This document shows, one piece after another, positions 7,168 through 55,146 of a DNA stretch of 64,000 nt. This DNA comes from Actinomadura sp. KC06 (GTDB lineage: Bacteria; Actinomycetota; Actinomycetes; Streptosporangiales; Streptosporangiaceae), in contig NZ_SMKT01000019.1 in NCBI RefSeq assembly GCF_004348735.1, positions 1 through 64,000 of the forward strand, read 5' to 3'. A program made the position numbers and the translations under genes. The stretch's first letter is position 1. Every line of letters starts with the position of its first letter. A model generated the notes under the pieces. That model saw only the letters and a program-made list of their open reading frames with translations, did not search any database and had not been told where the DNA came from.

Positions 7168-7639
7168 TCAAACGGCCATGCGAGCCCACACCCATTTCCC
7201 GGCCGGGGCAGTTTCGGTCACTCCACACTCCGAGGTCAGCGCCTGCACGATCGGCAGGCCCCGGCCGCCCGTCCGGAGTCGTATCCCGGGTTCAGCGCCT
7301 CAGGGTCCGCAGCCATGTCACCGGCCACAACGCCCAGCGCCCGCTTACGGACTGGCTTGCCGTCCGAGGAGTCCCACACCGCCAGCAGGACCCCGAGAGG
7401 CTCCCGCGCGAGCCTCACCCGGATCTCCCGCTCGTCCCCCATTTCAGTGAGTTGGTCACCAACTCACTGGCGATCAGCGCCATGTCGTCGCGCAGCCTGC
7501 CCAGCCCCCAGGACGCAAGCCGCAACTCAACCAGCGTGCGCACCTGAGCCGGAGCCGTCGCCGATGCCAGGAATGTCGTGTCCAGCGCCTCAACGGTCCC
7601 CACGCTCGCCGCCGTCCCGCTACGGGTCATCACGACCAC
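7168..7639 (-). pseudogene. frameshifted anti-sigma-like ATPase (RsbW/SpoIIAB-type HATPase)
   Basis: Three frames together make one ATP-binding regulator of about 157 aa. The start at 7639 leads to ALIASELVTNSLK (N box), then the frame breaks at a run of five C at 7436-7440. The next frame gives GDEREIRVRLAREP and VLLAVWDSSDGKPV, breaking again near 7255-7272. A third gives GRGLPIVQALTSE and KWVWARMAV to the stop at 7168. Each break is repaired by adding one base to a short homopolymer. Such single-domain ATPases usually sit beside XRE regulators in actinobacteria, as here. Either a true pseudogene or assembly error explains it. Confidence 0.75.
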
Positions 7640-7881
7640 CGCCTGATCTGCCGCAGGACCAACAGCGTCCGGTCCGCCGCCGCCGACTCCTTCCCCACAT
7701 CACCGATGACGTGTCCGCGCTCACCACCCCACCGGAAGCGCTGACCATCACAAGCGATCACTTGCTCACCACGCACGCCCAGCGACACCACGAGCGTGTC
7801 CCCGTACACCTGCGCCAGGCATCGCCGCTGGGAGAGTTGCTCCGCCAACTCGTCCAGCGGCCTGCCCGCACCGTCTGCCAT
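7630..7881 (-). CDS. conserved-looking hypothetical protein
   Basis: 83 aa from ATG 7881, which has GGAAGG at 7-bp spacing. The sequence is soluble, with an N-terminal helix rich in Leu/Glu (LDELAEQLSQR), a strand VYGDTLVVSLGV and a Trp/Gly-rich patch FRWGGERG. No family is recognised. It overlaps the start of the ATPase remnant by 10 bp and diverges from the XRE regulator, the usual position of the third member in such small regulatory islands. Unlike both neighbours, its frame is intact. Confidence 0.55.
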   Translation of the reverse strand: MADGAGRPLDELAEQLSQRRCLAQVYGDTLVVSLGVRGEQVIACDGQRFRWGGERGHVIGDVGKESAAADRTLLVLRQIRRWS

Positions 7882-8070
7882 GAGCCGTCCTTCCGTCGAG
7901 CACGGGGGATGCAAAGGAGCAGCACCCAGCGCCACCGCGATCGACCGGAGTTGACCGGTGGGGAGGTACCGCCGTTCCAGGGCTCTGAGCCTGTCTTTCT
8001 CACCGGATCTCCCGGAGGCACCAGCCGGGGAGCCAGGGAGGGGCCAGACTTAAGGGAGAGAGGGGCCAGC

Positions 8071-9308
8071 GTGGGCGACGCAAAGCGGAAGCGATTCGGC
8101 GCGTACCTCGCACAGATGCGCAGGGACGCACACAAGAGCCAGAGACAACTGGCAGAGACGTTGTGCCGGATGTCCGGGACCGTCTCTGTGACGCGGCACG
8201 AGGTCAGCCGATGGGAACGAGGTGAGCGCGTTCCGGATGTCTGGCTACCCGCCCTCGCGACGGCCCTGAGCGTTCCACTTGACACGCTTGAACGCGGAGC
8301 CGCCCATGCGCGAGGCGAGGACATCAGCGCCGGGCCGCGCAGTCCGGCTGAGGCGCTCGCCTACTTCTTGCCCGATCACGACGTGGATCTTGGCCCCCTA
8401 GCGAGCGAAGCAGGCCGCCGAGTGGGAGCCACCACAGCCGCCACCCTTGCCGACCGGGCGCACAGCCTGCGACTGGCCGACGACGTCATCGCCGGTGGCG
8501 ATCTACTCGCCCCCGCGCTCCGGGAACTGGACGGTGCCATCCGGCTCTACCGGGAGACGACGCATTCCGAGGAGACCGGCCGCTCTCTTCTGAGCAGCAT
8601 CGGAGAGATGGCGCAGATCACGGGATGGATCGCCAGCGACGCAGGCGAGCACGAGCAGGCGGCGCGCGTCTACCGGCTTGGAGTCTCGGCCGCTAGGGAA
8701 GCCGGAGACCTCGCCCTGGTTGGCAACCTCGCCGGAAGCCTCGCCTACCAGCTCTCCAACACTGGCCGCGAAGACGACGGGCTGAGCCTCGCCCTTGCGG
8801 CGCTAGAAGAGGCAGGGCCGGACGCCCCGGCCAAGGCCCGCGCGCTCTACCTTGACCGAGTCGCATGGGCCCACACCAAAGCAGGCGACACCCACCAGCG
8901 ATGCGCGCTCTCGCCGAGGCCCACGAAGCCATGGCCAACGAGGACTCGCAGGAGTCCCCAGACTGGGCCTATTGGGTCTCCCCCGAGGAACTCGATGTGA
9001 TGGACGCCCGCGTCTACACGGAGCTTCGGAAACCGTTGCGCGCCGTTCCGCTCCTGCAAGAGGTGCTCAGCCGCTACGACTCCACCCACACCCGCGAACT
9101 GGCCCTCTACCTCTCATGGCTCGCGGTCGCACTCGTAGACGCGAACGAGCCAGAGGAGGCTGCCCTGGCGGCGCGCAGGATGCTCGACCTTTCGGCCGAC
9201 TTCGCGAGCGACCGCACGACCCAGCGAGGCCGCATCGTCCTCACGAAGCTGGAGCCGTTCCGCGACATCCCCGAGGTACGCGAAGTGCTCGACACGTACG
9301 CGGCCTGA
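8071..9308 (+). pseudogene. frameshifted XRE-family regulator with TPR-like C-terminus
   Basis: GTG 8071 follows a GGGAGAGAGGGG stretch. The first frame gives a helix-turn-helix (QRQLAETLCRMSG, TRHEVSRWERGERVP) and then alpha-helical repeats through AWAHTKAGDT at about 8890. There the frame is lost; the next frame continues with AMRALAEAHEAM and more helices to DTYAA and the stop at 9308. Adding one C to CCC near 8891-8893 restores a single protein of about 412 aa, a normal length for XRE-TPR regulators. As read, the product would lack its last about 140 residues and gain an unrelated tail. Confidence 0.75.
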
Positions 9309-9988: not shown

Positions 9989-10062
9989 GCCCTCAGGTTA
10001 GCTCGCCGCCGGAGTCATGAGTGTTTCTCTTATGGCTGATTACGTCCTGGTAGGTTGCTTTC

Positions 10063-10947
10063 GTGGTGAGGCGGGGGATCGCGTTCGGGGTCGCGGCGTA
10101 CGTGCTGTGGGGGTTGTTCCCGCTGTACTGGCCGCTGCTGAAGCCGGCGGGCGCGGTCGAGATCCTCGCGCACCGGATCATGTGGTCGCTGGTCGCGGTG
10201 GGGGCGGTGCTCGCCGCGCGGCGGAGCCTGCGGTGGGTCAGGACGCTGACCGTCCGGCAGGTCGTGCTGCTGGCGCTGGCGGCGGTGATGGTCACGGTCA
10301 ACTGGGGCACGTATATCTACGCCGTCAACAGCGGGCAGACGATCGAGGCGGCGCTGGGGTACTTCATCAACCCGCTGATCAGCGTGCTGTTCGGTGTCGT
10401 CGTTTTCCGGGAGCGGCTGCGGACGTGGCAGTGGTGCGCGGTCGGGATGGGCACGCTGGCGGTGGTCGTGCTGACCGTCGACTACGGGCGTCCTCCCTGG
10501 ATCGCGCTGGTGCTGGCGGTGGCCTTCGGGACGTACGGGCTGATCAAGAAGTTCGTCGACATGCCGTCGGCGGAGGGCTTGGCGGTCGAGACGGCCGTGC
10601 TGTTCCTGCCCGCCTTGGGCTTCGTGCTCGTGTTGGAGGGCGGAGGCGAGGGGACGTTCGGGCATCAGGGCGTCGGACAGGCGGTTCTGCTGGCCGCGGC
10701 GGGTGTGGTGACGGCTGTGCCGATGATGTTCTTCAACGCGGCGGCGATCAGGTTGCCGCTGACGGTCATCGGCATGTTGCAGTACCTGGCGCCTGTCCTG
10801 CAGTTCGCCATCGGAGTGTTCGTCCAGCACGAGGAGATGCCGGCGAGCCGCTGGACGGGCTTCCTGCTGGTGTGGCTCGCGCTGGTGATGCTCACCTGGG
10901 ACGGTCTGCGGGCCGCCCGCCGCGAAGCGCTCCCCGAGACCGCCTAG
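10063..10947 (+). CDS. rarD: RarD-type EamA/DMT-family transporter
   Basis: 294 aa with ten predicted membrane helices in two EamA halves. The opening with YVLWGLFPLYW and AHRIMWSL is the conserved RarD signature, followed by NWGTYIYAVN and a second half with PMMFFNAAAIRLPL. Family members are exporters, sometimes linked to chloramphenicol sensitivity; the true substrate is not known. It starts at GTG 10063, where a second GTG follows. It stands alone, divergent from msrA. Confidence 0.9.
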   Translation: MVRRGIAFGVAAYVLWGLFPLYWPLLKPAGAVEILAHRIMWSLVAVGAVLAARRSLRWVRTLTVRQVVLLALAAVMVTVNWGTYIYAVNSGQTIEAALGYFINPLISVLFGVVVFRERLRTWQWCAVGMGTLAVVVLTVDYGRPPWIALVLAVAFGTYGLIKKFVDMPSAEGLAVETAVLFLPALGFVLVLEGGGEGTFGHQGVGQAVLLAAAGVVTAVPMMFFNAAAIRLPLTVIGMLQYLAPVLQFAIGVFVQHEEMPASRWTGFLLVWLALVMLTWDGLRAARREALPETA

Positions 10948-10998
10948 GGAGGCTAAAGTGCCGGACGTCACACGCGCCCGGATCCGAGGGAGCTCTCG

Positions 10999-11358
10999 TT
11001 GCGGCTGGTCAGCGTCATCATCCTGGGAACGGCACTCGTCGCCGTCGGCCTCCTGGCTCCAGGAACGGGTGACGCGACCCCGGCCGAACGCGACGGTGTC
11101 TCAGTGCGGCCCGAGATAGTGAAGCCGGGAGAGCGGGTCCGGGTCTCGGTTCCGCGATGCGATGGCGTGAGGTCTGCGACGTCCGCGGCGTTCACCGGCC
11201 GGGCAGTGGACGGCGCGGCCACCGTCAGGCCGAACGCCGAACCCCGGACGTACGCGGTCGTGGCCTACTGCGGGTCGCGGAAGGTGACGGGCGAGGTGCG
11301 GGTGGCGGAGCGTCATGGATGGCCGGACCTGCTGCCCGCCGACCGAAACGTCCGCTGA
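10999..11358 (+). CDS. small secreted protein of unknown function
   Basis: 119 aa from TTG 10999, with GAGGGAG 7 bp upstream. Residues 1-27 form a signal peptide with a long hydrophobic core ending near DATPA. The mature part starts with VSVRPEIVKPGERVRVSVPRC, resembling the first strands of an Ig-like or cell-surface repeat domain, and holds two cysteines that could pair. Nothing closer can be recognised. It lies 51 bp after rarD on the same strand but is not obviously linked by function. Confidence 0.6.
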   Translation: MRLVSVIILGTALVAVGLLAPGTGDATPAERDGVSVRPEIVKPGERVRVSVPRCDGVRSATSAAFTGRAVDGAATVRPNAEPRTYAVVAYCGSRKVTGEVRVAERHGWPDLLPADRNVR

Positions 11359-11676
11359 CCTTCCTGCGGACTCGTCACCGGACGATTTCGCAAGCATATT
11401 CGATAGCAATTATCCCGAATTGTCGATCGAGCTCAGTTGAGATCTTTCTGACTGGACTGACGAATCGCTTGCAAAGTGAGCCACGTCACGCATGGATGAC
11501 CAAACCTACCCCCGGCTGGACACTTGTTTTCGTCAAATGATCATGTGATACTTCCTACAACTCGGTCAGAACGCCCATCTAACTACAAAATGCCCACGCA
11601 GCTCGATCTGCCTGAAAGTCCTCAAAGGTCACGAGCCGGTGGTCTTCTTGGCGCCGGCTTCACAGAGGGGTCGAGA
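11359..11676 (+). promoter_or_regulatory. 318-bp upstream region of the terpene cassette
   Basis: This gap is visibly richer in A and T than its surroundings, consistent with a promoter region for the P450-terpene operon. No convincing -35/-10 pair could be fixed by eye. A GTGA-N6-TCAC dyad lies at 11476-11489. An in-frame ATG at 11590 could extend the P450, but the sequence there has no P450 character and the start at 11677 has a better ribosome site. Confidence 0.4.
11476..11489. promoter_or_regulatory. GTGA-N6-TCAC dyad, CRP/FNR-type operator candidate
   Basis: GTGAGCCACGTCAC reads as GTGA, six bases, TCAC, the core of sites bound by CRP/FNR-family regulators. It is 188 bp upstream of the P450 start. 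Only the four-base arms are symmetrical, and a match this short is expected by chance at moderate frequency, so this is a suggestion only. Confidence 0.3.
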
Positions 11677-13032
11677 ATGTCCGTCGATGCCCGTATCCGG
11701 ACCGTCCATAAGGCACAGACGCTCTCAATCAGCCACCTGCCAGGGCTTCTGCGTGACCCTCTAAGAGAGTTCGAGGAGATGGGCAGGGAAGCGGACGGCC
11801 GGATCGTGCGCGCGAACCTCGGCCCCTTCCGCCCGTATCTGATCACACATCCGGATCACCTTCAGCACGTCCTGCGCGACAACGTCGACAACTACCGGCG
11901 TGACGGCATGATGTGGAAGCCGCTCAGCCGGCTGGTGGGCGAGACCTCCGATGCGGATCCGTCCTGGCCCGTCAAGAGGAGGGTGTACCAGGACCTGCTC
12001 TCGGGACCGAGCACCGCGCTGGTCGCCGACAAGATGGTGGCGACGATCTCCGATGCCGTGGGCGAACTGGGCGAACGAGCCGACCCGGAACGACCGGTCG
12101 ACGCCTACGAGGAGATGACCCGCATCGTGTACCGGACGATAATCCGCGTGCTCATCGGTGATCGGATCTCGGTGTCGCAGATCGACGAACTCGGCCAGGT
12201 GATGGTGACCGCCACGACCTCTTCGTTCCGATCGCGGATGCTGATGCCCTTCGTCCCGCTCTCGGTGCCGCTCCCGGGGGACAGGACCTTCAACCGATCC
12301 GTCCAGGCGGTGGACGACCTCATCTTCCCCATCGTCCGCGAGGCGCGCCGGAACGGCGCCGGCGGACGGGACGTCGTGTCCCTGCTCCTCAACGCGCGGG
12401 GCGAGGACGGCAAGGGGATCGATGACCGCGCGGTGCGGGACGGGATCACGGGCCTGTTCGTCGCGGCCACGGACACCACGGTCTCGGTACTGACGTTCCT
12501 GTGGGCGGCGCTGGACCTCAATCCCGAAGTCCGTGCCAGGCTCTACGACGAGATGGACCGGGTAGTAGGGGAGGGTCCGCCGTCGTTCGAGCACGTGGCG
12601 GACCTGACCTACACCAAGATGGTCCTGCACGAGGCGCTGCGCCTGTACTCGGTCGCCTGGATCGCCCCGCGGGTCGTCGAGGCGGACGACCTCATCGACG
12701 GAGTCCGCATCAAGGCGGGCGCCATCGTCGCCGTCAGCCCCTTCCTCACACACCGCCTGCCCGGAATATGGCCGCAGCCGTACGTCTTCGACCCGGAGCG
12801 ATTCGCCACGGGCAGATCTCGGCACAGGTTCGCGTTCATGGCGTTCGGTGGCGGCCCCAACCAGTGCGCGGGACGCGTCTTCTTCTTCATCGAGGCACCG
12901 CTCATCCTGGCCACGCTGCTCAGCAAGTATCGGCCGATACTTCACAGCCCACATCCGGTTGAGCCGCGAGTGGACATCACGCTGAAGCCCCGCGACCGCG
13001 TGAAGATCACGCTTGAGCCCGTTCGGCGCTGA
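11677..13032 (+). CDS. cytochrome P450 of a terpene cassette
   Basis: 451 aa from ATG 11677, which has GAGGGG at 6-bp spacing. The I-helix reads FVAATDTT near residues 262-269 (usual AGxDTT, Gly replaced by Ala), ExxR is EALR at 318-321, and the haem loop is FGGGPNQCAG with Cys397. The usual Arg or His two residues before the Cys is Asn. No N-terminal membrane anchor is seen, so it is a soluble bacterial P450 needing ferredoxin partners, which are not encoded here. The class I terpene synthase follows by 49 bp. The likely role is oxidation of the cyclised terpene. Confidence 0.85.
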   Translation: MSVDARIRTVHKAQTLSISHLPGLLRDPLREFEEMGREADGRIVRANLGPFRPYLITHPDHLQHVLRDNVDNYRRDGMMWKPLSRLVGETSDADPSWPVKRRVYQDLLSGPSTALVADKMVATISDAVGELGERADPERPVDAYEEMTRIVYRTIIRVLIGDRISVSQIDELGQVMVTATTSSFRSRMLMPFVPLSVPLPGDRTFNRSVQAVDDLIFPIVREARRNGAGGRDVVSLLLNARGEDGKGIDDRAVRDGITGLFVAATDTTVSVLTFLWAALDLNPEVRARLYDEMDRVVGEGPPSFEHVADLTYTKMVLHEALRLYSVAWIAPRVVEADDLIDGVRIKAGAIVAVSPFLTHRLPGIWPQPYVFDPERFATGRSRHRFAFMAFGGGPNQCAGRVFFFIEAPLILATLLSKYRPILHSPHPVEPRVDITLKPRDRVKITLEPVRR

Positions 13033-13081
13033 GCGACGGCGCGCCACGTCCGCATCCCGCACCGCGTGAGAAGGCCCGACA

Positions 13082-13978
13082 ATGACCTCCAGCGAGCATG
13101 CCCTCGAGTTCGACGACCTGCCTCCCGCCGTGGAGATCGGCAGGATCTGCGCCGTGGCCGGGCAGGCCGCACGAGACACCCAGCGCTGGACCGCCCAGTA
13201 CGGCCGCCTGTTCTCTGCCAAGCCCTTCGACACGACTCTGTACCACACGGTCTGCCAATGCATGTCATTCAGTGCGCCGTGGGCCGCAAGCGAAGAGTTG
13301 CGACTTGCGAACCGCGCGGCGCTGTGGGGCTTCGGTGCGGACTGGCTCGTCGACTACGCGGCGACGTCCCGGACGGCGGTGGAGGAGATCGTGGCCGGGT
13401 GCCTGGCCGTTGCGGACGGCGCCGTACCGCCCGACGACGACCTCCTGCTCTCGCTCGCCGACATCCGCGACGAGCTGGCGGAGGCGCCCGCCTGGGGCGC
13501 GCTCCGGCCCGTCTGGCGCGACCACCTCGCCCGCTTCCTGCGGGCGATGGCGCGCGAGTGGGACTGGCGGGAGGCCGGGGAGAAGGGGCGTCCCACCTTC
13601 GCCGAATACCTCGACAACGCGGACAACTTCGGATTCTCCTTCGCCTTCGTGTCGCACTGGGCATTCACGAGCCCGCCACCGACGGAACATGACATCGCGA
13701 CCATCCAGAACGCCGGCCTGGCGGCCCAGCGCACAGGACGATTGATCAACGATCTCGGCACCTACGAGCGAGACCTCGAGTGGGGCGATCTCAACGCGCT
13801 GCTGCTCGGTGTCGGCCGCGAAGAGGTCGCCCGGCGCATCGCCGAGTTGACTCGCGAGTTCCAGGAGGCGGCGGCCCCGATGCGGGCCGACCATCCGCGT
13901 CTGGCCCGGTACCTCGAGCGCCAGCTCGATTTCTGCACCGGCTTCTACGGAGGTTCCGACTACTGGGGAAACCTGTGA
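13082..13978 (+). CDS. class I terpene synthase with variant metal motifs
   Basis: 298 aa all-helical protein from ATG 13082 (GAAGG 7 bp upstream). The second metal motif is clear: NDLGTYERD at residues 223-231 fits NDxx(S/T)xx(K/R)(D/E). The first, normally DDxxD, is reduced to DWLVD at 87-91, keeping only the first and last acids. An Arg-rich helix and the C-terminal FCTGFYGGSDYW resemble the aromatic end of bacterial class I synthases. It would ionise a prenyl diphosphate, or the bicyclic diphosphate made by the class II partner. Its stop overlaps the GTG of the class II gene. Confidence 0.75.
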   Translation: MTSSEHALEFDDLPPAVEIGRICAVAGQAARDTQRWTAQYGRLFSAKPFDTTLYHTVCQCMSFSAPWAASEELRLANRAALWGFGADWLVDYAATSRTAVEEIVAGCLAVADGAVPPDDDLLLSLADIRDELAEAPAWGALRPVWRDHLARFLRAMAREWDWREAGEKGRPTFAEYLDNADNFGFSFAFVSHWAFTSPPPTEHDIATIQNAGLAAQRTGRLINDLGTYERDLEWGDLNALLLGVGREEVARRIAELTREFQEAAAPMRADHPRLARYLERQLDFCTGFYGGSDYWGNL

Positions 13979-15672
13979 GATCCGACTGCGCCTCATCGTG
14001 CGGAACTGAGCAGGAGGCTGCGGACACCAACGTGACCGCGGTGGCACATGAGCTACTGACCAGCCTTCTCACTCGTCCCTGGGGGCAGGTTTCCCTGTCC
14101 GTCTACGAAACGGGTCGCCTGATCTCGCTGTCTCCGTGGCTCGCGGGCCACAGTCGACGCGTCCAGTACATTCTGGATGCCCAGCGGCCGGACGGTCTCT
14201 GGGGCGCACCGGGCGCCTATGCGGTCGTCCCGACGCTGAGCGCGGTGGAGGCCTTGCTCACCGTGCTCCGGAGCCGCGCGGGCGGCGGGACGGATGATGA
14301 GGGGAACTCCGCGAGCAAAAGGAACGAGGCGGATCTCGGGAAGGTGTCCGGCGCGCTAGACCGGGCGTTGCCTCCGCTCCTGCGGCGATTGCCCGCCCTG
14401 AACTTCGGCATGTTCCCGGACCTGCCCGCGAGCGATCTGATCGTCGGCTCCCTGGTCGGCTCGATCAATCGGCACCTGGACCGGCTCGGCGGCTCCTCTC
14501 CGCCGTTCACCGGCCGCATCTCGACAGACGCTCGGCTGGGAACACCGAAGGGTCTGGACGGAGGACGTCTCGCCAAGATGCGCACGGCTCTCATCGCGGG
14601 CATCAACCTTCCGGAGAAGGTGCTGCACGCACTGGAGGTCGCCGGCGACCTCGCCGGCGGGGCGCGCACCGTCCACCCGGGTTCCAGCGGCGCGATCGGC
14701 GCGTCTCCCGCGGCCACCGCCGCATGGCTCGGCGGACGGGGCGCGTTTCGTCCGCGGCATCCGGCCCGGCTCTTCCTGGAGGCCGTCGCCGATGACCATG
14801 CGGGGCCGGTGCCGTGCGGCTTCCCCATCACCGTCTTCGAGCGAGCCTGGGTTCTGAGCACCCTCGCCCGCGCGGGGGTCATCTCCACCGCCCCGGCCGC
14901 GCTGATGAGGAATCTCGAGGCCGCGCTCGGACCGGTCGGGACCCCCGCCGCGGAGGGACTTCCCGCGGACGCGGATACGACGTCTGCCACCCTGTACGCC
15001 CTCGGACTGCTCGGGGTGTCTCGGTCCCCAGAGGCCCTGTGGACGTATGAAACACCCACGCACTTCTGCACCTGGCCAGGTGAAGGGGGCTTCTCGATCA
15101 CGGTCAACGCCCATGTGCTCGAAGCGTTCGGCCAGTACCTGCACAACGTCCTGAAGTGCGGAGAGTCCCTCCCGGCGTCCGTTCCGCGATACGCGAAGGC
15201 CGTCGACGAGCTCGTGACCCTGCTCAGCGACCAGCAGCGTGCGGACGGAAGCTGGGTGGACAGGTGGCACGCGTCCCCCTACTACGCGACGGCGTGCTGT
15301 GTCGCGGCGCTGGCCCGCTTCGGCGGGGCCAGGGCGGCCGGGGTCCTCGAACTGGCCCGCGCATGGGTACTGGAAACGCAGCGTCCCGACGGCTCTTGGG
15401 GGCTATGGGGCGGGACGGCGGAGGAAACGGCGTACGCACTGCAGATACTGCTGCCAACCCCCTCGGACACCGGAGCGCCTGAGCCGACAGAGATGTATAA
15501 GGAATCCATAACTCGGGGGGATAAATTCCTCTCGGTACTCTGGGCTCGCTCGAACAATGGACACATTGAGGGTCCGGCGCTGTGGCACGACAAGGACCTC
15601 TACCTTCCCGTGGCCATCGTGCGCGCCTCCATCCTGGCCGCTCAGCACCTCGCCAGGAAGTACGTCCCGTAG
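13975..15672 (+). CDS. class II (protonation-initiated) diterpene/sesquiterpene cyclase, DxDTT type
   Basis: 565 aa starting GTG 13975, overlapping the class I stop by GTGA. It has the beta-gamma alpha-barrel look of copalyl-diphosphate-synthase relatives, with QW-like repeats such as QRPDGLWG, QRADGSW and QRPDGSWGLWGG. The catalytic acid motif, normally DxDD, is DADTT at residues 332-336. DxDTT variants are known in some class II cyclases. No class I motif is present. It should cyclise GGPP or FPP by protonation while keeping the diphosphate, handing the product to the class I enzyme. The product cannot be inferred. Confidence 0.8.
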   Translation: MRSDCASSCGTEQEAADTNVTAVAHELLTSLLTRPWGQVSLSVYETGRLISLSPWLAGHSRRVQYILDAQRPDGLWGAPGAYAVVPTLSAVEALLTVLRSRAGGGTDDEGNSASKRNEADLGKVSGALDRALPPLLRRLPALNFGMFPDLPASDLIVGSLVGSINRHLDRLGGSSPPFTGRISTDARLGTPKGLDGGRLAKMRTALIAGINLPEKVLHALEVAGDLAGGARTVHPGSSGAIGASPAATAAWLGGRGAFRPRHPARLFLEAVADDHAGPVPCGFPITVFERAWVLSTLARAGVISTAPAALMRNLEAALGPVGTPAAEGLPADADTTSATLYALGLLGVSRSPEALWTYETPTHFCTWPGEGGFSITVNAHVLEAFGQYLHNVLKCGESLPASVPRYAKAVDELVTLLSDQQRADGSWVDRWHASPYYATACCVAALARFGGARAAGVLELARAWVLETQRPDGSWGLWGGTAEETAYALQILLPTPSDTGAPEPTEMYKESITRGDKFLSVLWARSNNGHIEGPALWHDKDLYLPVAIVRASILAAQHLARKYVP

Positions 15673-15745
15673 CATCGAACAGACCCAACGGCAACATGTC
15701 GTTCATGTTTCCTGCATCACAAGACGCGGCGACATTAACGAAAAA

Positions 15746-15760
15746 CCCATCACTGATGGG
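15746..15760. promoter_or_regulatory. 15-bp palindrome between the terpene cassette and the conservon
   Basis: CCCATCACTGATGGG is a perfect dyad (7-bp arms, one central base) set in an AT-rich patch, 73 bp after the cyclase stop and 154 bp before cvnA. It has no long stem or T run expected of a terminator, so an operator for a dimeric repressor is the simpler reading. No regulator can be named. Confidence 0.4.
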
Positions 15761-15913
15761 AACAAAGTACGTCATCTGAGCCCGCGAGGTTGCTAAGGTA
15801 CTGGCGCGTGCGAGGCGATCGCTTCCCGTCGCACTGCACGCCCGCTCACCACGGCCCCGAACCCCCTCTGCGGCGGTCCGCCGGCCGCTCGGGAACTCGT
15901 TGAGGACTGGTTG

Positions 15914-18358
15914 ATGCGCATCCGCAACTCACGTCTGCGGACGAAAATTGCCGCCCTGCTCCTATCGCTCACCGCGTTGTGGGCCTTCGCCGCATGGGTG
16001 ACCATGCGGGAGGGACTGAACCTCCTGGCCATCAACACGCTCGACCAGAAGATCGGCCGTCCCGCCGTCGAACTGGTCACCCAATTGCAGCAGGAGCGGC
16101 GCCTCTCGCTGGTCTACCTCGGCAGCCAGGGACGCCAGCAGCGGGCCGCGCTGGACCAGCAGCGCCGGAAGGTCGACGGGGCGGTGTCCGACTACCGGGA
16201 GAAGACCTCGAGCGGCGCCGTCTCCCGTGTGGCGGGCGACGCCGTCGAGCGACGGATCGAGGAATCATTCGCCCGGCTGGACGCGCTCGGCGCCGCCCGG
16301 AGCGCCGTCGACGGCCGCTCCGTAGACCGGAATGTGGCCGCCAAGCCGTTCAACGACGTCATCGACGCGGCCTACCGCCTCTACGGCTCGGCCGGCAACG
16401 TGGACGACGAAGCCATCGCCAAGGACAGCCGTACCCTCAACTCCCTGACCAGGGCCAAGGAGGTCCTCTCTCGTGAGGACGCGTTCCTCGCCGGGGTCAT
16501 CGCGTCCGGACGCTTCACCCCCGCCGAGCATGCGCAGTTCGTCGAACTCCGCGGCGTCCAGCGGTTCCTGCACACCGAGGCCGCGGCGGAACTTCCCAAG
16601 GCTGATCTCGCCCAGTACAACGCGGTGCTCAAGAGCGACGCGTACGCGCGACTCCGGCTGCTGGAGGAACGCGTCATCCAGAGCAGGCCCGGCGGTGCGG
16701 CGCCGAGGATCCGGGCCGAGGAATGGCGAGCGGCGATGGCCCCCGTCCAGGAGCTGTTGGAGCAGGTGGTCCTCGACGGCGGGGACCGGCTGGTCGAGCG
16801 CGCCAAGCCGATGGCCTTCGGCATCATCGTGCGATTGCTGCTGGCCGGAGGTCTGGGACTGCTGGCGGTCATCGCGTCCATCGTGATGTCGATCACCACC
16901 GCGCGTGCGCTGGTGCGGCAGCTCGAACGGCTGCGGAGCGCGGCGTGGGAGCTGGCGGAGCAGCGGTTGCCCGGGGTCGTCGAGCGGCTCGGGCATGGGG
17001 AGACGGTGGACGTCGCCGTGGAGGCGCCGCCGCTGGAGTTCGGTGCGGACGAGATCGGGCAGGTGGGGCGCGCGTTCAACGCCGTGCAGGAGACCGCGAT
17101 CCGGACCGCCGTCGAGCAGGCCGAGCTGCGGCGCGGTGTCCGGGACGTCCTGCTCAGCCTGGCCCGCCGCACCCAGACGCTCGTGCACCGGCAGCTGACC
17201 ATGCTCGACACCATGGAGCGCCGCCGCGACATCGAGGTCAAGGAGCTGGAGGAGCTGTTCAAGCTCGACCACCTCGCGACCCGGATGCGGCGCAACGCCG
17301 AGAACCTCATCGTGCTGTCCGGCGCGCTGCCCGCCCGCGGGTGGCGCAACTCCGTCCCGATGGTGGACGTCGTCCGCGCCGCGGTCGGCGAGGTCGAGGA
17401 CTACACCCGCGTCACCGTGCTGCCGTTCGGGCCGGTCGAGCTGGCCGGACGCGCCGTCGGCGACCTCACCCACCTGCTCGCCGAGCTGATCGAGAACGCC
17501 GTGTCGTTCTCCCCGCCCGAGACCGTCGTGCAGGTCGGCGGGCATCTGGTGGCCAGCGGCTACGCGATCGACATCGAGGACCGCGGGCTCGGCATGTCCG
17601 ACGAGAGGCTCGCCGAGATCAACGCGCGGATCGCCGACCCGCCCGACTTCAACCTGCAGAGTTCTGTCCAGCTCGGCCTGTTCGTGGTCAGCAGGCTCGC
17701 CGAGCGGTACAACGTGCAGGTATCGCTGAAGCGCTCCGCCTACGGCGGCACCACCGCCGTCGTCGTCATCCCCCGGGATCTCGTCGTCGAGCAGAGTCCG
17801 GCGCCCGCCACCACCAAGAACGGCCTGGAAGTGCGCCGGCCGGCCGCGGTCGGCGCCGCGTCCGGCGGCGGAGGCACGGGGCCGCAGCCCGCGCTGATCG
17901 CGGTGCCGCCGCCCGAGTCGGCTCCAGGGGCGTCGGGTGAACCGAACGGGCAGACCGCCGCCGGCGAGCCGCAGGCGGACCAGCCCGCCCGGCACGACGA
18001 CGGCGACCCACGGCCTGACGCGGATCCGCGGCCCGAGGCGGAGGACTCCCATCCCCGGCCGGAGGACCAGCCGCCAGTGCCCGACATCTCCATCACGCCG
18101 TCCGGCCTGCCCGTCCGGGTTCCGCAGGCGAACCTCGCCGAGCCCCTGCGCGGCGACGAACCGGCCGCCGCAGGCGAGCCGGACGAGCACGACGACCCCG
18201 GCCGCTCCCCTGAAGAGATCCAGCGGATCATGGGCGCCTACCAGCGCGGGACCCGGCAGGGCCGCACGGACGCAGCCCAGAACGAACAGGCCGTCCCGGC
18301 CGAACAGCGCGACAAGATCCTCGGCACCAACGCAGCGGAAGGCGAGGAAGATCAGTGA
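15914..18358 (+). CDS. cvnA: conservon sensor kinase-like protein CvnA
   Basis: 814 aa from ATG 15914 (GAGGA 8 bp before). A short cytoplasmic start leads to a membrane helix (about 10-30), an extracellular helical sensor like the nitrate/nitrite-sensing domain (30-295), a second helix (about 299-325) and a HAMP linker. A conserved block with LFKLDHLATRMRRNAENL (His near 453) precedes the ATPase domain, with N box LIENAVSFSPPE near 525 and DRGLGMSDERL. The last about 170 residues are Pro/Asp/Glu-rich and disordered. In Streptomyces, CvnA proteins act with CvnB-D as a membrane complex likened to eukaryotic G-protein systems. It is co-translated with cvnB. Confidence 0.9.
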   Translation: MRIRNSRLRTKIAALLLSLTALWAFAAWVTMREGLNLLAINTLDQKIGRPAVELVTQLQQERRLSLVYLGSQGRQQRAALDQQRRKVDGAVSDYREKTSSGAVSRVAGDAVERRIEESFARLDALGAARSAVDGRSVDRNVAAKPFNDVIDAAYRLYGSAGNVDDEAIAKDSRTLNSLTRAKEVLSREDAFLAGVIASGRFTPAEHAQFVELRGVQRFLHTEAAAELPKADLAQYNAVLKSDAYARLRLLEERVIQSRPGGAAPRIRAEEWRAAMAPVQELLEQVVLDGGDRLVERAKPMAFGIIVRLLLAGGLGLLAVIASIVMSITTARALVRQLERLRSAAWELAEQRLPGVVERLGHGETVDVAVEAPPLEFGADEIGQVGRAFNAVQETAIRTAVEQAELRRGVRDVLLSLARRTQTLVHRQLTMLDTMERRRDIEVKELEELFKLDHLATRMRRNAENLIVLSGALPARGWRNSVPMVDVVRAAVGEVEDYTRVTVLPFGPVELAGRAVGDLTHLLAELIENAVSFSPPETVVQVGGHLVASGYAIDIEDRGLGMSDERLAEINARIADPPDFNLQSSVQLGLFVVSRLAERYNVQVSLKRSAYGGTTAVVVIPRDLVVEQSPAPATTKNGLEVRRPAAVGAASGGGGTGPQPALIAVPPPESAPGASGEPNGQTAAGEPQADQPARHDDGDPRPDADPRPEAEDSHPRPEDQPPVPDISITPSGLPVRVPQANLAEPLRGDEPAAAGEPDEHDDPGRSPEEIQRIMGAYQRGTRQGRTDAAQNEQAVPAEQRDKILGTNAAEGEEDQ

Positions 18359-18777
18359 CGCAGAAGACCGGTTCCTCATCCGATCTGGGCTGGTTGCTGG
18401 ACGACCTGGTCCACCGGCTGCCGCACGCCCGGAGCGCGGTCGTCCTGTCGGCGGACGGCCTGCTCATGGCCGCCTCCGAGGGCCTGCCGCAGGACGACGG
18501 CGAGCACCTCGCCGCCGTCGCCGCCGGGATCCAGAGCCTCGCCAAGGGGGCCGGGACCCGGTTCGGCGGCGGGCCCGTCCGGCAGACGATCGTGGAGATG
18601 CAGTCGGCGTACCTGCTGGTGACGGTGGCCGGCAAGGGCGCCTGCCTCGCGGTCCTGGCCGAGGAGGACGCCGACGTGGGCCTCACCGCCTACGAGATGG
18701 CCATGCTCGTCACGGCGATGGGGCACCATCTCACGTCGCCGTCCCGTGCGGAGAGCGCGGAGGGACAGGCCGGATGA
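18355..18777 (+). CDS. cvnB: Roadblock/LC7-domain protein CvnB
   Basis: 140 aa Roadblock fold, seen in LGWLLDDLVHRLP, SAVVLSADGLLMAAS, the central helix DGEHLAAVAAGIQSLAKG and LLVTVAGKGACLAVLAEE. Such proteins bind small GTPases and in conservons link CvnA to the CvnD GTPase. GTG 18355 overlaps the cvnA stop and its own stop overlaps the cvnC start, so all are coupled. Confidence 0.92.
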   Translation: MTQKTGSSSDLGWLLDDLVHRLPHARSAVVLSADGLLMAASEGLPQDDGEHLAAVAAGIQSLAKGAGTRFGGGPVRQTIVEMQSAYLLVTVAGKGACLAVLAEEDADVGLTAYEMAMLVTAMGHHLTSPSRAESAEGQAG

Positions 18778-19214
18778 TCCCGCCCGACGACCCGTCGCCC
18801 GATTTCTGGGCGGAGGCGCCGCCGCCGGAGCCGGAGCCGGAACCGGACGCCGCGGAGCGCTGGCTCGACGAGAGCGCCGGCCCGATGGTGCGCCCGTACG
18901 TGATGACGAGCGGCCGCACCGAGCCGTCCCGCGGCACGTTCGACCTGATCACGATGGTGGTCGCGGTCGGCGTGGAACCCGACACCACGATCGGGCTCGG
19001 GCCCGAGCATCTGGCCATCGTCCGGCTCTGCCAGGACGTGATGTCGGTCGCCGAGATCACCGGCCACCTCGACCTTCCCGTCGCGACGGTGCGGGTGATG
19101 CTCGGCGATCTGCTCGACAAGGGGTTCGTCTCCCTGCAGGAACCCGAACCGGAGGCGGACATGCACGACATCAGGATCTACAAGGCGGTGATCGATGGTC
19201 TCCGGGCCCTCTAG
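18774..19214 (+). CDS. cvnC: DUF742 protein CvnC
   Basis: 146 aa, starting at ATG 18774 in an ATGA overlap with cvnB. An N-terminal acidic run of Pro-Glu repeats (around residues 15-24) is followed by the DUF742 core: MVRPYVMTSGRTEPS, GPEHLAIVRLCQDVMSVAEI and a winged-helix-like end with LPVATVRVMLGDLLDKG. It is the third fixed member of every conservon. Its exact role is not known. Confidence 0.92.
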   Translation: MIPPDDPSPDFWAEAPPPEPEPEPDAAERWLDESAGPMVRPYVMTSGRTEPSRGTFDLITMVVAVGVEPDTTIGLGPEHLAIVRLCQDVMSVAEITGHLDLPVATVRVMLGDLLDKGFVSLQEPEPEADMHDIRIYKAVIDGLRAL

Positions 19215-19824
19215 GCGCAGCACCCCGGCAGGGGGTGTGCGCGCCCGCCGGCTCCCCACCGCGGTCAAGATCGTGATCGCGGGCGGCTTCGGGGTCGGCA
19301 AGACCACCATGGTGGGCACGGTCTCGGAGACCCAGCCGCTGCGCACCGAGGAACTCCTCACCGACCGCGGCGTCGGCGTGGACGACGTCGCCGGCGTCGA
19401 ACGCAAGGACACCACCACGGTCGCGATGGACTTCGGCCGCATCACGATGCGGGACGAGTACGTCGTCTACCTGTTCGGCACCCCCGGCCAGAAGCGGTTC
19501 TGGTTCATGTGGGACGAGGTCGCGCTCGGCGCGCTCGGCGCGGTCGTCCTCGCCGACACGCGGCGCCTGTCCGACTGCTTCCCGTCGGTCGACTACTTCG
19601 AGCGCCGCAAGACGCCGTTCGTCGTCGCCGTCAACTGCTTCGAGGGCGCCAAGCGGTACGACCTCGCGGAGATCGAGATGGCCCTCAACCTGGGCCCCAA
19701 GGTTCCCGTGATGCTCTGCGACGCGCGCAGGCTCGACTCCTGCAAGGAGGTCCTCATCGACCTCGTCGTGCATGCGATGAAGTACCGCGGCCTGTCCGAG
19801 GAGGCCCAGCCGCAGAACGTGTGA
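19195..19824 (+). CDS. cvnD: conservon GTPase CvnD
   Basis: 209 aa small GTP-binding protein. The P loop is GGFGVGKTT (near residues 30-38), the switch region holds ERKDTTTVAMDFGRI, G3 is LFGTPGQKRFW (DxxG replaced by GTPG, as is normal in this family) and the base-recognition region reads VAVNCFEGAKRY. It starts 20 bp inside cvnC. CvnD is expected to cycle between GDP and GTP under control of CvnA and CvnB. It ends 8 bp from the convergent prenyl synthase gene. Confidence 0.92.
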   Translation: MVSGPSRRSTPAGGVRARRLPTAVKIVIAGGFGVGKTTMVGTVSETQPLRTEELLTDRGVGVDDVAGVERKDTTTVAMDFGRITMRDEYVVYLFGTPGQKRFWFMWDEVALGALGAVVLADTRRLSDCFPSVDYFERRKTPFVVAVNCFEGAKRYDLAEIEMALNLGPKVPVMLCDARRLDSCKEVLIDLVVHAMKYRGLSEEAQPQNV

Positions 19825-19832
19825 AGGCCGCG

Positions 19833-20870
19833 TCAGCCCGTCCTGGAGACGACGTAGTCGCAGAGGTGGGTGAGGGCGTCGCGGGCCGGGATGGCGGGGA
19901 GGGTGAGGAGTTCGGCGCGGGCGTCCTCGGCCCAGCGGCGGAGGTCGGCGCGGGCGCGGTCCATCGCGGGGTGGGCGCGCAGCAGCGCGAGGGCCTCGGC
20001 GTGGAGCGCGTCGTCGGACAGGTCGCGGACGAGGAGTTCGCGGAGGCGGGCGTCGTCCGCGCCCGAACCGATCCCGGCGAGGACGTGGTGCATCGGCAGA
20101 GTCCGGATGCCTTCGCGGAGGTCGGTGCCGGGGGTCTTGCCCGACTCTTCCGTCTCGGACGCGATGTCCAGGATGTCGTCGGAGAGCTGGAACGCCACGC
20201 CGATCTTCTCGCACGCGGACGTGACCGTCCGGACGACCTGGTCGGGTGCGCCCGCGAGCAGGGCGCCGAAATGGCCGGAGACGGCGATGAGGGAACCGGT
20301 CTTGTCGGCCACGACCTGCAGGTAGTGCTCGAGCTGGTCGGCTCCGGGACGCGGCCCGACGGTCTCCTGGATCTGGCCGCGGACGAGCCGTCCGAACGCG
20401 CGGGCCTGGATCCGGACGGCGTCAGGGCCGAGGTCGGCGAGCAGGTCGGACGCGCGGGCGAACAGGTAGTCGCCGGTGAGGATCGCGACGGTGTTCGTCC
20501 AGCGGGAGTTGGCGGACTGCTGGCCGCGGCGGACGGTCGCCTCGTCCATCACGTCGTCGTGGTAGAGGGTGCCGAGGTGCGTCAGCTCCACGACGACCGC
20601 GGCGGGGACGACGCCCGGCGCGGACGGGTCGCCGAAGTGGGAGGCCAGCAGCACGAGCATCGGCCGGAACCGCTTGCCGCCCGCCTCGACCAGGTGCTTG
20701 GAGGCGTCGGAGAGCAGCGGGTCCTCGCCGCGGACGCGGTCGAGGAGGAGGGCCTCGACGGCGGCGAGGCGCTCCTTGGCGTCGGCCGCGAGAGCCGCGT
20801 CGACGGAAAGCCCGAACGGGCCGGTCTCGGTGGCCGGCCCGCCGGGCTTCTCAGTGGAAGGGTTGCTCAC
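19833..20870 (-). CDS. long-chain polyprenyl diphosphate synthase
   Basis: 345 aa from GTG 20870 (GGGAG 6 bp before). The two Asp-rich motifs are DDVMD at about 105-109 and DDILD at 231-235, with GKRFRP and the second-half KTGSL motif typical of trans-prenyltransferases. Small residues before the first Asp motif (LGTLYHDD) allow a long product. Position next to nuo, menG and the reductase suggests the menaquinone side chain. It is also the only prenyl synthase in view, lying 4 kb from the terpene cassette, so a shorter product cannot be excluded. It follows nuoN by 10 bp and may be the last gene of that operon. Confidence 0.88.
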   Translation of the reverse strand: MSNPSTEKPGGPATETGPFGLSVDAALAADAKERLAAVEALLLDRVRGEDPLLSDASKHLVEAGGKRFRPMLVLLASHFGDPSAPGVVPAAVVVELTHLGTLYHDDVMDEATVRRGQQSANSRWTNTVAILTGDYLFARASDLLADLGPDAVRIQARAFGRLVRGQIQETVGPRPGADQLEHYLQVVADKTGSLIAVSGHFGALLAGAPDQVVRTVTSACEKIGVAFQLSDDILDIASETEESGKTPGTDLREGIRTLPMHHVLAGIGSGADDARLRELLVRDLSDDALHAEALALLRAHPAMDRARADLRRWAEDARAELLTLPAIPARDALTHLCDYVVSRTG

Positions 20871-20880
20871 CCAGGACTCC

Positions 20881-22476
20881 CTACCGGACGAACATGTGGG
20901 TCGTGGCTTGTCCCGCAAGGTCCAGAATGGGCTGTGGGAGCACGCCGAGTACCACAGTAGCCGTCGCGCCGAGCGCGACCGCGACCGCGGTCGCCGGCCC
21001 GGCCACCACGACCGGCCCGTCCGCGTCCGGCTCGCTGAAGAACATGACGACGATCACACGGACGTAGAAGAACGCGGCCACGGCGGACGAGATGACCGCG
21101 ACGACGACCAGCGGCGTCGCGCCCTCCTCGATCGCCGCCTTGAACACCGCGAACTTCCCGGTGAAGCCGCTTGTCAGCGGGATGCCCGCGAACGCCAGCA
21201 GGAAGAAGGCGAACACGCCCGCGACGACCGGGGAGCGTTTGCCCAGGCCGGCCCACCGCGACAGGTGGCCCGCCTCGCCGCCCGCGTCCCGCACCATCGT
21301 GACGACGGCGAACGCGCCGACGGAGGTGAACCCGTAGGCGAGCAGGTAGAACAGGGTGCTGGACAGGCCGTCCGGGGACGAGGCGATCACGCCCATGAGC
21401 AGGAAGCCCGCGTGCGCGATCGACGAGTACGCCAGCATCCGCTTGATGTCGGTCTGGGTGATCGCGATGATCGACCCGATGGCCATCGTGAGAATGGCCA
21501 CACCCCACATGAACGGCCGCCAGTCCCATTCGAGGGTCTCGAACACGACGTAGTAGACGCGCAGGATCGCGCCGAACGCGGACACGACCGTGCAGGACGC
21601 CATCAGCGCGGTGATCGGCGTCGGGGCGCCCTGGTACACGTCCGGCTTCCACATGTGGAACGGGACGCCGCCGAGCTTGAACAGCAGCCCGACCGACAGG
21701 AGCGCGACCCCGGCGAGGAGCAGCGTCTCGTTGCCGGCGTCCTTGCCGATCTGCGCGGAGATGTCCGACAGCCGCACCGACCCGGCGTAGCCGTAGAGGA
21801 GCGCGGCGCCGTACAGGAAGAACGCCGAGGAGAACGCGCCGAGCAGGAAGTACTTGACCGCCGCCTCCTGCGACAGCAGCCGCCGCCGGCGGGCGAGCCC
21901 GCACAGCAGGTACAGCGGCAGCGACAGGACCTCCAGCGCGACGAACATCGTGAGCAGGTCGTTCGACGCCGGGAACATCAGCATGCCGCCGACGGCGAAC
22001 ATCATCAGCGGGAAGACCTCGGTCTGGATGACGCCCGCCTGGGTGGTTCGCTGCTCGGCCTCGCTGCCAGGCAGCGCGGACGCCTGCGCGGCGAAGTGCC
22101 CGCCGACCGCTCCGGCCCGGCCGTCGCCGCGCTCGGCGATCAGCAGGAGGCTGACGAGCGCGAGCACCAGGATGGTGCCCTGCAGGAACAGGGTGGGGCC
22201 GTCCACGGCGAGGGCGCCTTCGGCGGCGACGTGGTGCGGGTCGTCGCGCCATGCGAGCGCCGCCGTCCAGGCGAAGCCTCCGGCGAGGCCGAGGAACGCG
22301 AGCGGCACCTGCAGGTAGTAGCGCCACGTGCGGCCGACGAACGCCTCGACCAGCACGCCCGCCACGGCGACGCCGAAGACCAGCAGCATCGGGGCGAGCT
22401 GCCCGTACTCGATGTGCGGCGCGGGGATGTCACCCCCCTGCGCGAGGATCATGGTCCCGTGGGCGCCGGTGTTCAT
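20881..22476 (-). CDS. nuoN: NADH-quinone oxidoreductase subunit N
   Basis: 531 aa antiporter-like membrane subunit with about 14 helices. Functional segments include a Lys/His-bearing helix (LKRMLAYSSIAHAGFLLMG) and KLGGVPFHMWKPDVY. NuoN is one of three proton-pumping channels of complex I. Its start overlaps the stop of nuoM by four bases. Confidence 0.96.
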   Translation of the reverse strand: MNTGAHGTMILAQGGDIPAPHIEYGQLAPMLLVFGVAVAGVLVEAFVGRTWRYYLQVPLAFLGLAGGFAWTAALAWRDDPHHVAAEGALAVDGPTLFLQGTILVLALVSLLLIAERGDGRAGAVGGHFAAQASALPGSEAEQRTTQAGVIQTEVFPLMMFAVGGMLMFPASNDLLTMFVALEVLSLPLYLLCGLARRRRLLSQEAAVKYFLLGAFSSAFFLYGAALLYGYAGSVRLSDISAQIGKDAGNETLLLAGVALLSVGLLFKLGGVPFHMWKPDVYQGAPTPITALMASCTVVSAFGAILRVYYVVFETLEWDWRPFMWGVAILTMAIGSIIAITQTDIKRMLAYSSIAHAGFLLMGVIASSPDGLSSTLFYLLAYGFTSVGAFAVVTMVRDAGGEAGHLSRWAGLGKRSPVVAGVFAFFLLAFAGIPLTSGFTGKFAVFKAAIEEGATPLVVVAVISSAVAAFFYVRVIVVMFFSEPDADGPVVVAGPATAVAVALGATATVVLGVLPQPILDLAGQATTHMFVR

Positions 22477-40290: not shown

Positions 40291-40510
40291 GGACGGAGAC
40301 TACTTCCCAGGGGCCCGGCGCGGCGGGCGCGGCGTGTCGGACGGGACGCTTTCACACCCCCGTTCAATGCGTTACTTGGCAGGTCAAACGGGGTCAGCGG
40401 GAGGCATGCCCCGAAAGTCGCCCGCACCGAGGGTGATCGGTCCTGCTCGGAAAACTACGGTGCGTGATCTTTTCCGAAAACAAGGGAGAAATCGGTCTTG
40501 ACCCGCCACA

Positions 40511-40521
40511 CTGTTAAACAG
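40511..40521. promoter_or_regulatory. short palindrome upstream of bldC
   Basis: CTGTTAAACAG (5-bp arms, one central base) lies 41 bp before the bldC start, just after a TTGACC hexamer at 40498-40503. No -10 with proper spacing to that hexamer is evident. It may be an operator, but the dyad is short. Confidence 0.3.
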
Positions 40522-40561
40522 TCCACCCGCGCCGAGAGCGGGACAAAGGGGGAGAGAAAAC

Positions 40562-40765
40562 GTGGAGAGCACGAGCGAGCGCCTGCTGACCCCAGGAGAG
40601 GTCGCCGCCCTCTTCCGGGTCGACCCGAAGACGGTCACCCGGTGGGCCGCCGCGGGCCGGATCAGCAGCATCCGCACTCCGGGGGGCCACCGGCGCTTCC
40701 GCGAGTCCGAGGTGCACGCGCTGCTGCGCGGCGATGAGCCCATCGCCGAGCATTCGGCCCGCTGA
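40562..40765 (+). CDS. bldC: developmental DNA-binding protein BldC
   Basis: 67 aa, a lone MerR-type winged helix: LLTPGEVAALFRVDPKTV, RWAAAGRISSIRTPGGH and RRFRESEVHALL. Length and sequence match BldC, which in Streptomyces binds direct repeats cooperatively and holds back the onset of sporulation. GTG 40562 follows GGGGGAGAG. It is monocistronic, with a 270-bp upstream region and a convergent gene after it. Confidence 0.93.
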   Translation: MESTSERLLTPGEVAALFRVDPKTVTRWAAAGRISSIRTPGGHRRFRESEVHALLRGDEPIAEHSAR

Positions 40766-40952
40766 CCTGCCTGAACCTCGCTGATCGCAGGGCCCGCCCG
40801 CCGACATCGGGGCCCGCCACCGGCCTCAGCCGCCCGGACCGCCGCGCCGTGGTAGTCCCCCGGGGGAGACCCTCGCCCGGGCGGCCGGGGCCGTTTCGTT
40901 TCCAGAACCGAGCCGTTTCCGAGACCCTTTCGCATTTCCCGGGTGTTACCGG

Positions 40953-41255: not shown

Positions 41256-41305
41256 CGTCGTCCACCCTCGCGATTCGCTTGTGCGCGCCCTGCCATCAGG
41301 ATGTC

Positions 41306-55106: not shown

Positions 55107-55146
55107 GATCCTTCTCCCCGTGAGGTGAGGCGCTACCGCGATCGCG

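Follow-up and report, generated by a model that had tools for sequence, protein, structure and literature searches.

Co-diversification of a conservon sensor domain with adjacent terpene cyclase and P450 genes in Actinomadura and related actinobacteria

What does a conservon respond to when it lies directly beside genes for a terpene? The question is raised by seven consecutive genes in a 64,000-nucleotide stretch of Actinomadura sp. KC06 (contig NZ_SMKT01000019.1, positions 1 to 64,000; hereafter the window), in which a cytochrome P450, a class I terpene synthase and a class II terpene cyclase (together, the cassette) precede the conservon genes cvnA, cvnB, cvnC and cvnD. An earlier note on this DNA had placed all seven genes on one strand, as was confirmed here (Table 1), and had proposed that the conservon may govern a terpene product or react to it. 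That proposal is supported by our comparisons: homologous cassettes are nearly always found beside a conservon, and the case is strengthened by a separate CvnA clade, by joint presence and absence, and by co-diversification of the enzymes with the NIT sensor domain of CvnA. We consider it reasonably probable that the seven genes function as a single unit, in which a diterpenoid block is joined to a dedicated conservon that would sense its product through NIT and signal through a G-protein output.

Neighbourhoods of cassette homologues were compared, as the earlier note had recommended, in four sets of genomes that overlap in a few members, and a locus was counted as linked when a conservon gene lay within 8 kb of the cyclase homologue. 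In a named set of 40 loci, found by the class I protein alone in Actinomadura, Microbispora, Micromonospora, Microtetraspora, Nonomuraea and one metagenome-assembled genome (MAG), 39 were linked; L026, the one that was not, lies on a contig of 6 kb. Within Actinomadura the class II enzyme (E ≤ 1e-60) was present in 61 of 65 genomes and the class I enzyme (E ≤ 1e-25) in the same 61; besides the window, 60/60 loci were linked, CvnD being among the nearby genes at 55. A class-wide sample of 246 genomes yielded the class II enzyme in 11, with a conservon at all ten loci other than the window, including one (L200) where no class I relative was found in place. Among 150 Micromonosporaceae genomes the class I homologue occurred in 42, and 36 of the 40 loci examined were linked (40 of 43 places were taken; G260 was already in the class set, and G339 and G371 were left out). 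Overall, 145 of 150 sampled cyclase loci had a conservon gene within 8 kb, and all seven genes were found together at 32/40 named, 41/60 genus, 9/10 class and 34/40 Micromonosporaceae loci. This linkage is not due to chance, because the 8 CvnA-like matches (E ≤ 1e-10) in the 9.4 Mb of the window's own genome would place a random site within 8 kb of one in only about 2% of cases. Paralogues of the class II enzyme (42-44% identity) were linked in 0/4 cases.

The Actinomadura unit is flanked by a 351-aa open reading frame (ORF) on one side and by a polyprenyl synthase gene and nuoN on the other. In the four cyclase-less Actinomadura genomes no cassette or conservon relative lies between MsrA/the 351-aa ORF and polyprenyl synthase/nuoN; their CvnD genes are on other contigs. 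The polyprenyl synthase gene (19833-20918, minus strand), which adjoins nuoN at these four empty sites too, was rejected as a cassette member, as were the ORF at 10017-11072 and MsrA, also present there. Inheritance of the linkage solely from the nuo site was likewise rejected, since outside Actinomadura the unit occurs at loci whose examined stretches contain no NuoN relative. The linkage is conserved across families and genomic sites and is not local.

The CvnA proteins of these loci form a lineage of their own. In a tree of 90 CvnA sequences, the 62 cassette-linked proteins fell on one side of a 100% branch and the 28 others, from six genomes of the genus and one MAG, on the opposite side; the tree omits five control rows that were below 240 bits or fragments (L149, L150, L176, L190 and L194) and, to limit its size, roughly half the rows of the genus and the majority of those from Micromonospora. 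When the 246 class genomes were queried with NIT only, matches of at least 248 bits were obtained in 12 genomes, 11 of them with the cassette, and all other matches were at or below 190 bits. The AlphaFold model of the NIT domain is all-helical (mean predicted local distance difference test score 80.6), and its best PDB match is NasR (4akk, 6.9e-7).

Protein distances were computed for 44 in-place Actinomadura loci (43 plus the window), with 17 split loci, described below, kept apart. Rows for the individual analyses were 29 complete loci (permutation test), 41 (classes) and 36 (backbone tree), and class and cluster cut-offs were of our choosing. The median distance across the 44 loci was 0.95 for NIT, 0.68 for the P450, 0.79 for the class I and 0.73 for the class II enzyme, but 0.095 for the CvnA kinase half, 0.13-0.20 for CvnB-D and 0.15-0.18 for NuoN, polyprenyl synthase and MsrA. 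After removal of NuoN and kinase distances, NIT distances were correlated with those of the P450 (partial r 0.90), the class II enzyme (0.77) and the class I enzyme (0.58; permutation p 0.001 each), but not with CvnB (0.03) or CvnD (0.06). When the loci were thinned to 29 that differed by at least 0.3 in NIT, the values for the three enzymes, in the same order, were 0.88, 0.67 and 0.51, with 0.00 for CvnB, 0.04 for CvnC and -0.07 for CvnD. The correlation also held within P450 class 1 (P450 0.89, class II 0.89, class I 0.60) and within P450 class 2 (0.60, 0.66 and 0.69). Two P450 classes and two NIT classes agreed in 41/41 loci (13 and 28); on the backbone tree each required 8 changes, and the change was joint in 7/7 independent pairs (p 0.016). 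When loci were cut into ten clusters, the adjusted Rand index (ARI) against NIT was 0.91 for class II, 0.75 for class I and 0.68 for the P450, compared with 0.04 for the kinase half and -0.03 for CvnD; with two clusters it was 0.63, -0.04 and 1.0 for class II, class I and P450. Ten block types required 22 changes on the backbone tree against a shuffled mean of 25.2, which indicates that the types are scattered over species. A comparable pattern was seen at 51 Micromonosporaceae loci, where, with kinase half, CvnD and CvnB as controls, the partial r of NIT was 0.76 with the P450, 0.81 with class II and 0.66 with class I.

How this variation is exchanged can be read from close relatives. Thirteen Actinomadura pairs differ by less than 0.04 in the kinase half and less than 0.06 in CvnD but by more than 0.5 in NIT, and different blocks occur in genomes whose CvnA kinase halves are 95-98% identical. 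Fourfold-degenerate sites were compared in 4 of the 13 pairs and breakpoints in 9. In L077/L137, L116/L129, L095/L131 and L122/L123 the block proteins are 38-59% identical and fourfold sites differ by 0.35-0.65, whereas outside the block (kinase, tail, CvnB-D, polyprenyl synthase, NuoN, the 351-aa ORF and MsrA, where read) the difference is 0.03-0.26; two pairs of the same type lacked any such contrast. High fourfold-site divergence inside and low divergence outside argue that the block has been replaced and has not changed by fast point mutation. For all nine Actinomadura pairs analysed (9/9), the best single breakpoint in CvnA fell at residue 294-310, the junction of NIT and the second transmembrane segment (TM2); three pairs from Micromonosporaceae had theirs at 304, 320 and 355.

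The split loci offer an independent view of the same association. In 17/61 Actinomadura genomes the cvnA beside the class II gene is reduced or was not found, and cvnB-D persist. The reduced frames keep a C-terminal motif resembling RSPEEIxRIMGSYQ, seven with a readable upstream part also keep SGLPVRVPQ, and three (L113, L115 and L119) retain the N-terminal start as well. Such preservation of tail motifs upstream of an intact cvnBCD suggests that the CvnA tail may have a function independent of sensor and kinase. These genomes encode a separate NIT-bearing CvnA, either at another place or, in L079, L139 and L115 (the last incomplete at the end of its stretch), within the locus itself but inverted or farther on. 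It adjoins a P450 in all genomes except that of L162, where none was found (16/17), and a class I synthase in all except those of L169 and L170, where none lies within 1.5 kb (15/17); the class II gene remains with CvnBCD. The separate proteins form one clade within the cassette clade (99%). No CvnB or CvnD relative, and only in three cases a weak CvnC-like match, was present at the 12 separate loci examined. In another genus, locus L201 has a class II gene, a reduced cvnA and cvnBCD divergent from a P450, a class I gene and a complete cvnABCD. The biosynthetic and the signalling genes have thus been distributed over the same two sites, which is what would be expected if they work together.

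Several observations weigh against the one-unit reading. No transcription factor is encoded inside the seven-gene unit. In Micromonosporaceae, both cyclases of L219 occur with no conservon in an 18-kb stretch, which when read in one frame showed nothing further; at L239 and L242 a class I gene is accompanied by a poor class II remnant (81-86 bits) but by no conservon proper, and L238 was counted as linked on CvnD alone. The fourth unlinked locus, L249, is at a contig end. Conversely, the twelfth genome of the NIT query (G159, locus L206, also Micromonosporaceae) has a clade-typical complete conservon (CvnA 765 bits) but neither a P450 nor a cyclase relative within its 19-kb stretch. NIT is also correlated with CvnC in Micromonosporaceae (0.30, p 0.002) and with CvnD (0.55) and CvnB (0.32) in the split group. 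In Micromonosporaceae, and in fine clustering within Actinomadura, the agreement of NIT with the adjacent class II enzyme equals or exceeds that with the distal P450. Finally, all six control conservon families (6/6) show faster evolution of NIT than of the kinase half; the ratio is about 3-11 in five, where NIT distances reach 1.09, and 15-40 in the sixth, which has no cyclase or P450 relative within 1.5 kb, compared with 3.7-48 in ten cassette pairs. A variable NIT is therefore not specific by itself. Such hypervariability was also rejected as a general CvnA property; it is neither general nor unique. The sixth family (L148, at G000:C398:19608-21470, L192, L184, L186 and L195) is a second conservon family of the genus, and in L148, L192, L186 and L195 it adjoins an ORF that by eye resembles a substrate-binding lipoprotein of ATP-binding cassette transporters. 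It is possibly another matched sensor system.

These points bear most on the strongest rival explanation, that selection acts solely on exchange of the biosynthetic genes and that NIT is dragged along because recombination needs a conserved right arm, the first long one being the kinase half of cvnA; the conservon would then regulate the cassette in answer to another cue. NIT does sit between the block and that arm, its correlation with the adjacent class II enzyme is high (0.77-0.81, with the ARI of 0.91 at ten clusters), and the same agreement would arise by hitch-hiking. It is this agreement, along with fast NIT evolution in unrelated conservon families, one of them hypervariable without cyclase or P450 neighbours, that keeps the explanation alive. 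We nevertheless regard it as unlikely. The distal P450 of Actinomadura tracks NIT better than the adjacent class II enzyme does (0.90 vs 0.77), and in mosaics such as window/L122 and L082/L094 the P450 and NIT stay closer while both intervening cyclases differ. In split genomes CvnA has left the class II gene and adjoins the P450. Moreover, the first 30 residues of CvnA (TM1), which are 73-97% identical, could serve as an arm that spares NIT, yet P450 and NIT classes agree at every locus compared.

A second alternative is self-protection or feedback, in which an antibiotic-like diterpenoid would act on NIT to trigger resistance or limit production, with no cell-to-cell signalling. It would leave the same genetics, namely matched synthesis and sensing with allelic exchange, and Cvn8 of S. 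coelicolor is described as repressing an adjacent lanthipeptide cluster (PMC8510531, PMC13343842). We think it distinctly improbable, given that no transporter or resistance gene lies between the P450 and cvnD in the window, the one locus searched for transporters, and that nearly all genomes of the genus (61/65) carry the cassette. Near-universal presence in a genus is unusual for an antibiotic cluster. That the conservon is a pathway-specific regulator answering an unrelated signal, with enzymes and sensor varying independently by local adaptation, has precedent in conservons reported within indole prenyltransferase (PMC3617294) and, as a suggestion, frankiamicin (PMC4383371) clusters, but is very improbable here, as it predicts neither the NIT-enzyme correlation after removal of species signal nor the coincident breakpoints.

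What the cassette may make was considered from its enzymes. The nearest solved structure to the class I enzyme is Sat1646 (7e4n; 5e-73, 249 bits), which is reported to turn copalyl diphosphate (CPP) into isopimara-8,15-diene (PMC9814573). Both signatures of the Sat1646 subfamily are present, a DWxxD-type aspartate motif (DWLVD, not DDxxD) and an NSE motif (NDLGTYERD); the D...D pair and the NSE motif are each kept in 135/138 aligned sequences. The class II enzyme is nearest to the ent-CPP synthase 5bp8 (8.7e-99). It lacks the DxDD motif of bacterial class II diterpene cyclases: 5bp8 has DSDD but the enzyme in the window has DADTT, and DAD[TS][TS] occurs in 141/142 aligned sequences, with the general-acid middle aspartate retained. 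Two of the four paralogues, L103 and L107, carry DSDD and DTDD, and the pattern used matched neither form in the other two. A labdane-type diterpene is a plausible product, given that the closest solved relative of the class I enzyme is Sat1646, which acts on CPP. A short-chain prenyl synthase gene is divergent to three Nonomuraea cassettes examined; its nearest models are encapsulin-cargo/IdsB ones, below NCBIfam cut-offs. At L081 and L083 (G035 and G059) the class II match contains one in-frame TAG, either decay or sequencing error. Contig C312 of the window's own genome (G000; 40076-41746, 54428-56545) encodes, about 13 kb from the CvnA of L144, a 734-aa frame with two Terpene_syn_C_2 domains, a layout which we take to be geosmin-synthase-like.

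The P450 has an I-helix ATDTT and a heme-binding FGGGPNQCAG motif by eye. The earlier note cited the linkage of conservons to P450 genes in Streptomyces. CvnE, the known accessory P450 of conservons, is reported to occur overwhelmingly with CvnA proteins that lack a sensory domain (PMC13343842), and the CvnA adjoining this P450 has a full NIT domain (PF08376, 1.3e-46) with a NasR-like fold. On this ground, the domain content of CvnA and not the kinship of the P450 sequence to CvnE, the P450 is probably not CvnE. The CvnA product also contains PF02518, with PF00672 below its own cut-off, and the four conservon genes are present in standard order by Pfam matches and coordinates.

Table 1. Genes, segments and candidate regulatory elements of the cassette-conservon unit in the window
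Feature	Positions	Strand	Details
P450, first gene of variable block	11677-13032	+	451 aa; PF00067 3.5e-59
Class I terpene synthase	13082-13978	+	298 aa; PF19086 6.2e-13; DWLVD, NDLGTYERD
Class II terpene cyclase	13975-15672	+	565 aa; SQHop_cyclase_C 3.8e-13; DADTT at residues 332-336
cvnA, sensor kinase-like	15914-18358	+	TM1, NIT, TM2, HAMP, HATPase, low-complexity tail
CvnA residues 31-310, hypervariable NIT sensor segment, predicted extracytoplasmic	16004-16843	+	right-hand part of variable block
cvnB, roadblock/LC7 (Robl_LC7)	18355-18777	+	PF03259 2.5e-26
cvnC, DUF742 protein	18774-19214	+	PF05331 4.4e-34
cvnD, small GTPase	19195-19824	+	PF03029 7.9e-30; small_GTP domain 1.7e-5, below cut-off
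Candidate cassette promoter	11523-11552	+	TTGTTT (11524-11529), 17-nt spacer, GATACT (11547-11552)
Conserved promoter core TGATCATGTGATACT	11538-11552	+	preceded by TTG box
Conserved element GTTGCTAAGGTACT upstream of cvnA, candidate separate promoter	15789-15802	+	alignment of 22 chosen Actinomadura class II-cvnA intergenic regions

The P450 and class I genes are separated by 49 bp, the class I and class II genes overlap by GTGA, and 241 bp separate the class II gene from cvnA. Upstream of the P450, the core TGATCATGTGATACT was found at up to 2 mismatches in 35/43 in-place Actinomadura loci, always 119-201 nt 5' of the P450 and nowhere else in the 710,560 bases of those 43 loci; in the window it has a single match at up to 3 mismatches. 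At up to 2 mismatches it occurs on the cyclase side of 9/17 split loci and at 0/14 separate CvnA loci (two with 1.5-kb flanks only). At up to 3 mismatches it precedes the cassette at 9/36 named loci outside Actinomadura, 7/10 class loci and 0/40 Micromonosporaceae loci. Its position and conservation indicate that the variable block is probably bounded on the left by its own promoter, at least outside Micromonosporaceae. Since cvnA has its own conserved upstream element, GTTGCTAAGGTACT, two transcription units appear more likely than one. The 241-bp gap before cvnA also contains an inverted repeat, CCCATCACTGATGGG (15746-15760). No Rfam or tRNA match was obtained anywhere in the window. An NsdA-family TPR-like regulator (NF053720, above cut-off) is encoded at 7315-9000, upstream of MsrA and the cassette, and good NsdA matches are present in loci L095, L096, L112, L131 and L133.

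If the seven genes work as one unit, the DADTT class II enzyme would cyclise geranylgeranyl diphosphate into a copalyl-type diphosphate, which the class I enzyme would ionise and cyclise further and the P450 would oxidise to a diffusible diterpenoid. On the outer side of the membrane, the cognate CvnA would bind this compound with its NIT domain, and the signal would pass by way of CvnB, CvnC and the GTPase CvnD to gene expression, perhaps also to that driven by the candidate cassette promoter. The P450, both cyclases and NIT would be an allelic block exchanged between species, with the kinase half, CvnB-D and the flanks constant. Opinion is evenly balanced on a further step, that this is a terpenoid pherotype system, in which kin would be recognised through type-specific oxidised diterpenoids read by an exchangeable NIT, with about ten block types in the genus.

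The agr system is a parallel instance of pherotype quorum sensing, and in ComP and AgrC variability extends over a segment of the sensor. ComQXP and agr resemble the unit described here in having hypervariable signal-synthesis genes and a sensor segment beside a conserved kinase and output. Polymorphism of comQXP has been described (PMC4408185). Co-variation of synthesis genes with the sensor segment, against a conserved kinase and output, is the pherotype hallmark and is what we find at this locus. In contrast to those systems, terpene cyclases with a P450 take the place of the peptide here, and a roadblock/DUF742/GTPase relay that of the response regulator.

Among conservons, Cvn8 and Cvn9 have the same cvnA-B-C-D order, domains and overlaps as the conservon in the window, and regulation of specialised metabolism has precedent (PMC8510531, PMC13343842). 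The type described here differs in its separate CvnA clade tied to cyclases, in the exchange of NIT with biosynthetic genes and, compared with CvnE, in a P450 that accompanies a NIT-bearing CvnA. The clusters for 5-dimethylallylindole-3-acetonitrile, small and of isoprenoid type, are reported to lie always beside a conservon across actinomycetes; they differ in combining a prenyltransferase with a tryptophanase or flavin-containing monooxygenase and in having the conservon upstream of the structural genes, not downstream as in the window, and the passages of that report on these clusters mention no sensor co-variation (PMC3617294). The Salinispora terp1/sat isopimaradienol cluster contains a P450 (CYP1051A1), a class I (Sat1646) and a class II enzyme, as in the window, and Sat1646 has metal motifs of the same kind (EDWQVD/NDLASYERD); the comparison is with the paper's text, whose main part has 0 occurrences of the word conservon (PMC9814573). 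Salinispora is absent from our genome sample, in which the best match to a Sat1646 fragment has 58% identity. HAD-type drimenol synthases also have a DxDTT variant in their class II domains, with the middle aspartate required (PMC9128629), but the enzyme in the window is stand-alone, nearest to 5bp8, and without a HAD domain match. A search of full-text literature by titles and the starts of abstracts, a coverage that mostly excludes subscription journals, yielded no description of a cyclase-P450-conservon unit.

Together, these observations suggest a chemical signal that may be detected by its own makers, soil actinobacteria, since the putative diterpene genes evolve in step with what is predicted to be the outer sensing part of the receptor and the rest remains constant. 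The inputs of conservons are largely unexplored, and this locus offers a concrete candidate class of ligand together with the genes that would make it, with natural type-swapped pairs as built-in controls. If the reading is correct, a ligand would be known for conservons, bacteria would have a signalling system based on diterpenoids with self and non-self types, and the near-universal presence of a diterpene cassette in Actinomadura would be explained.

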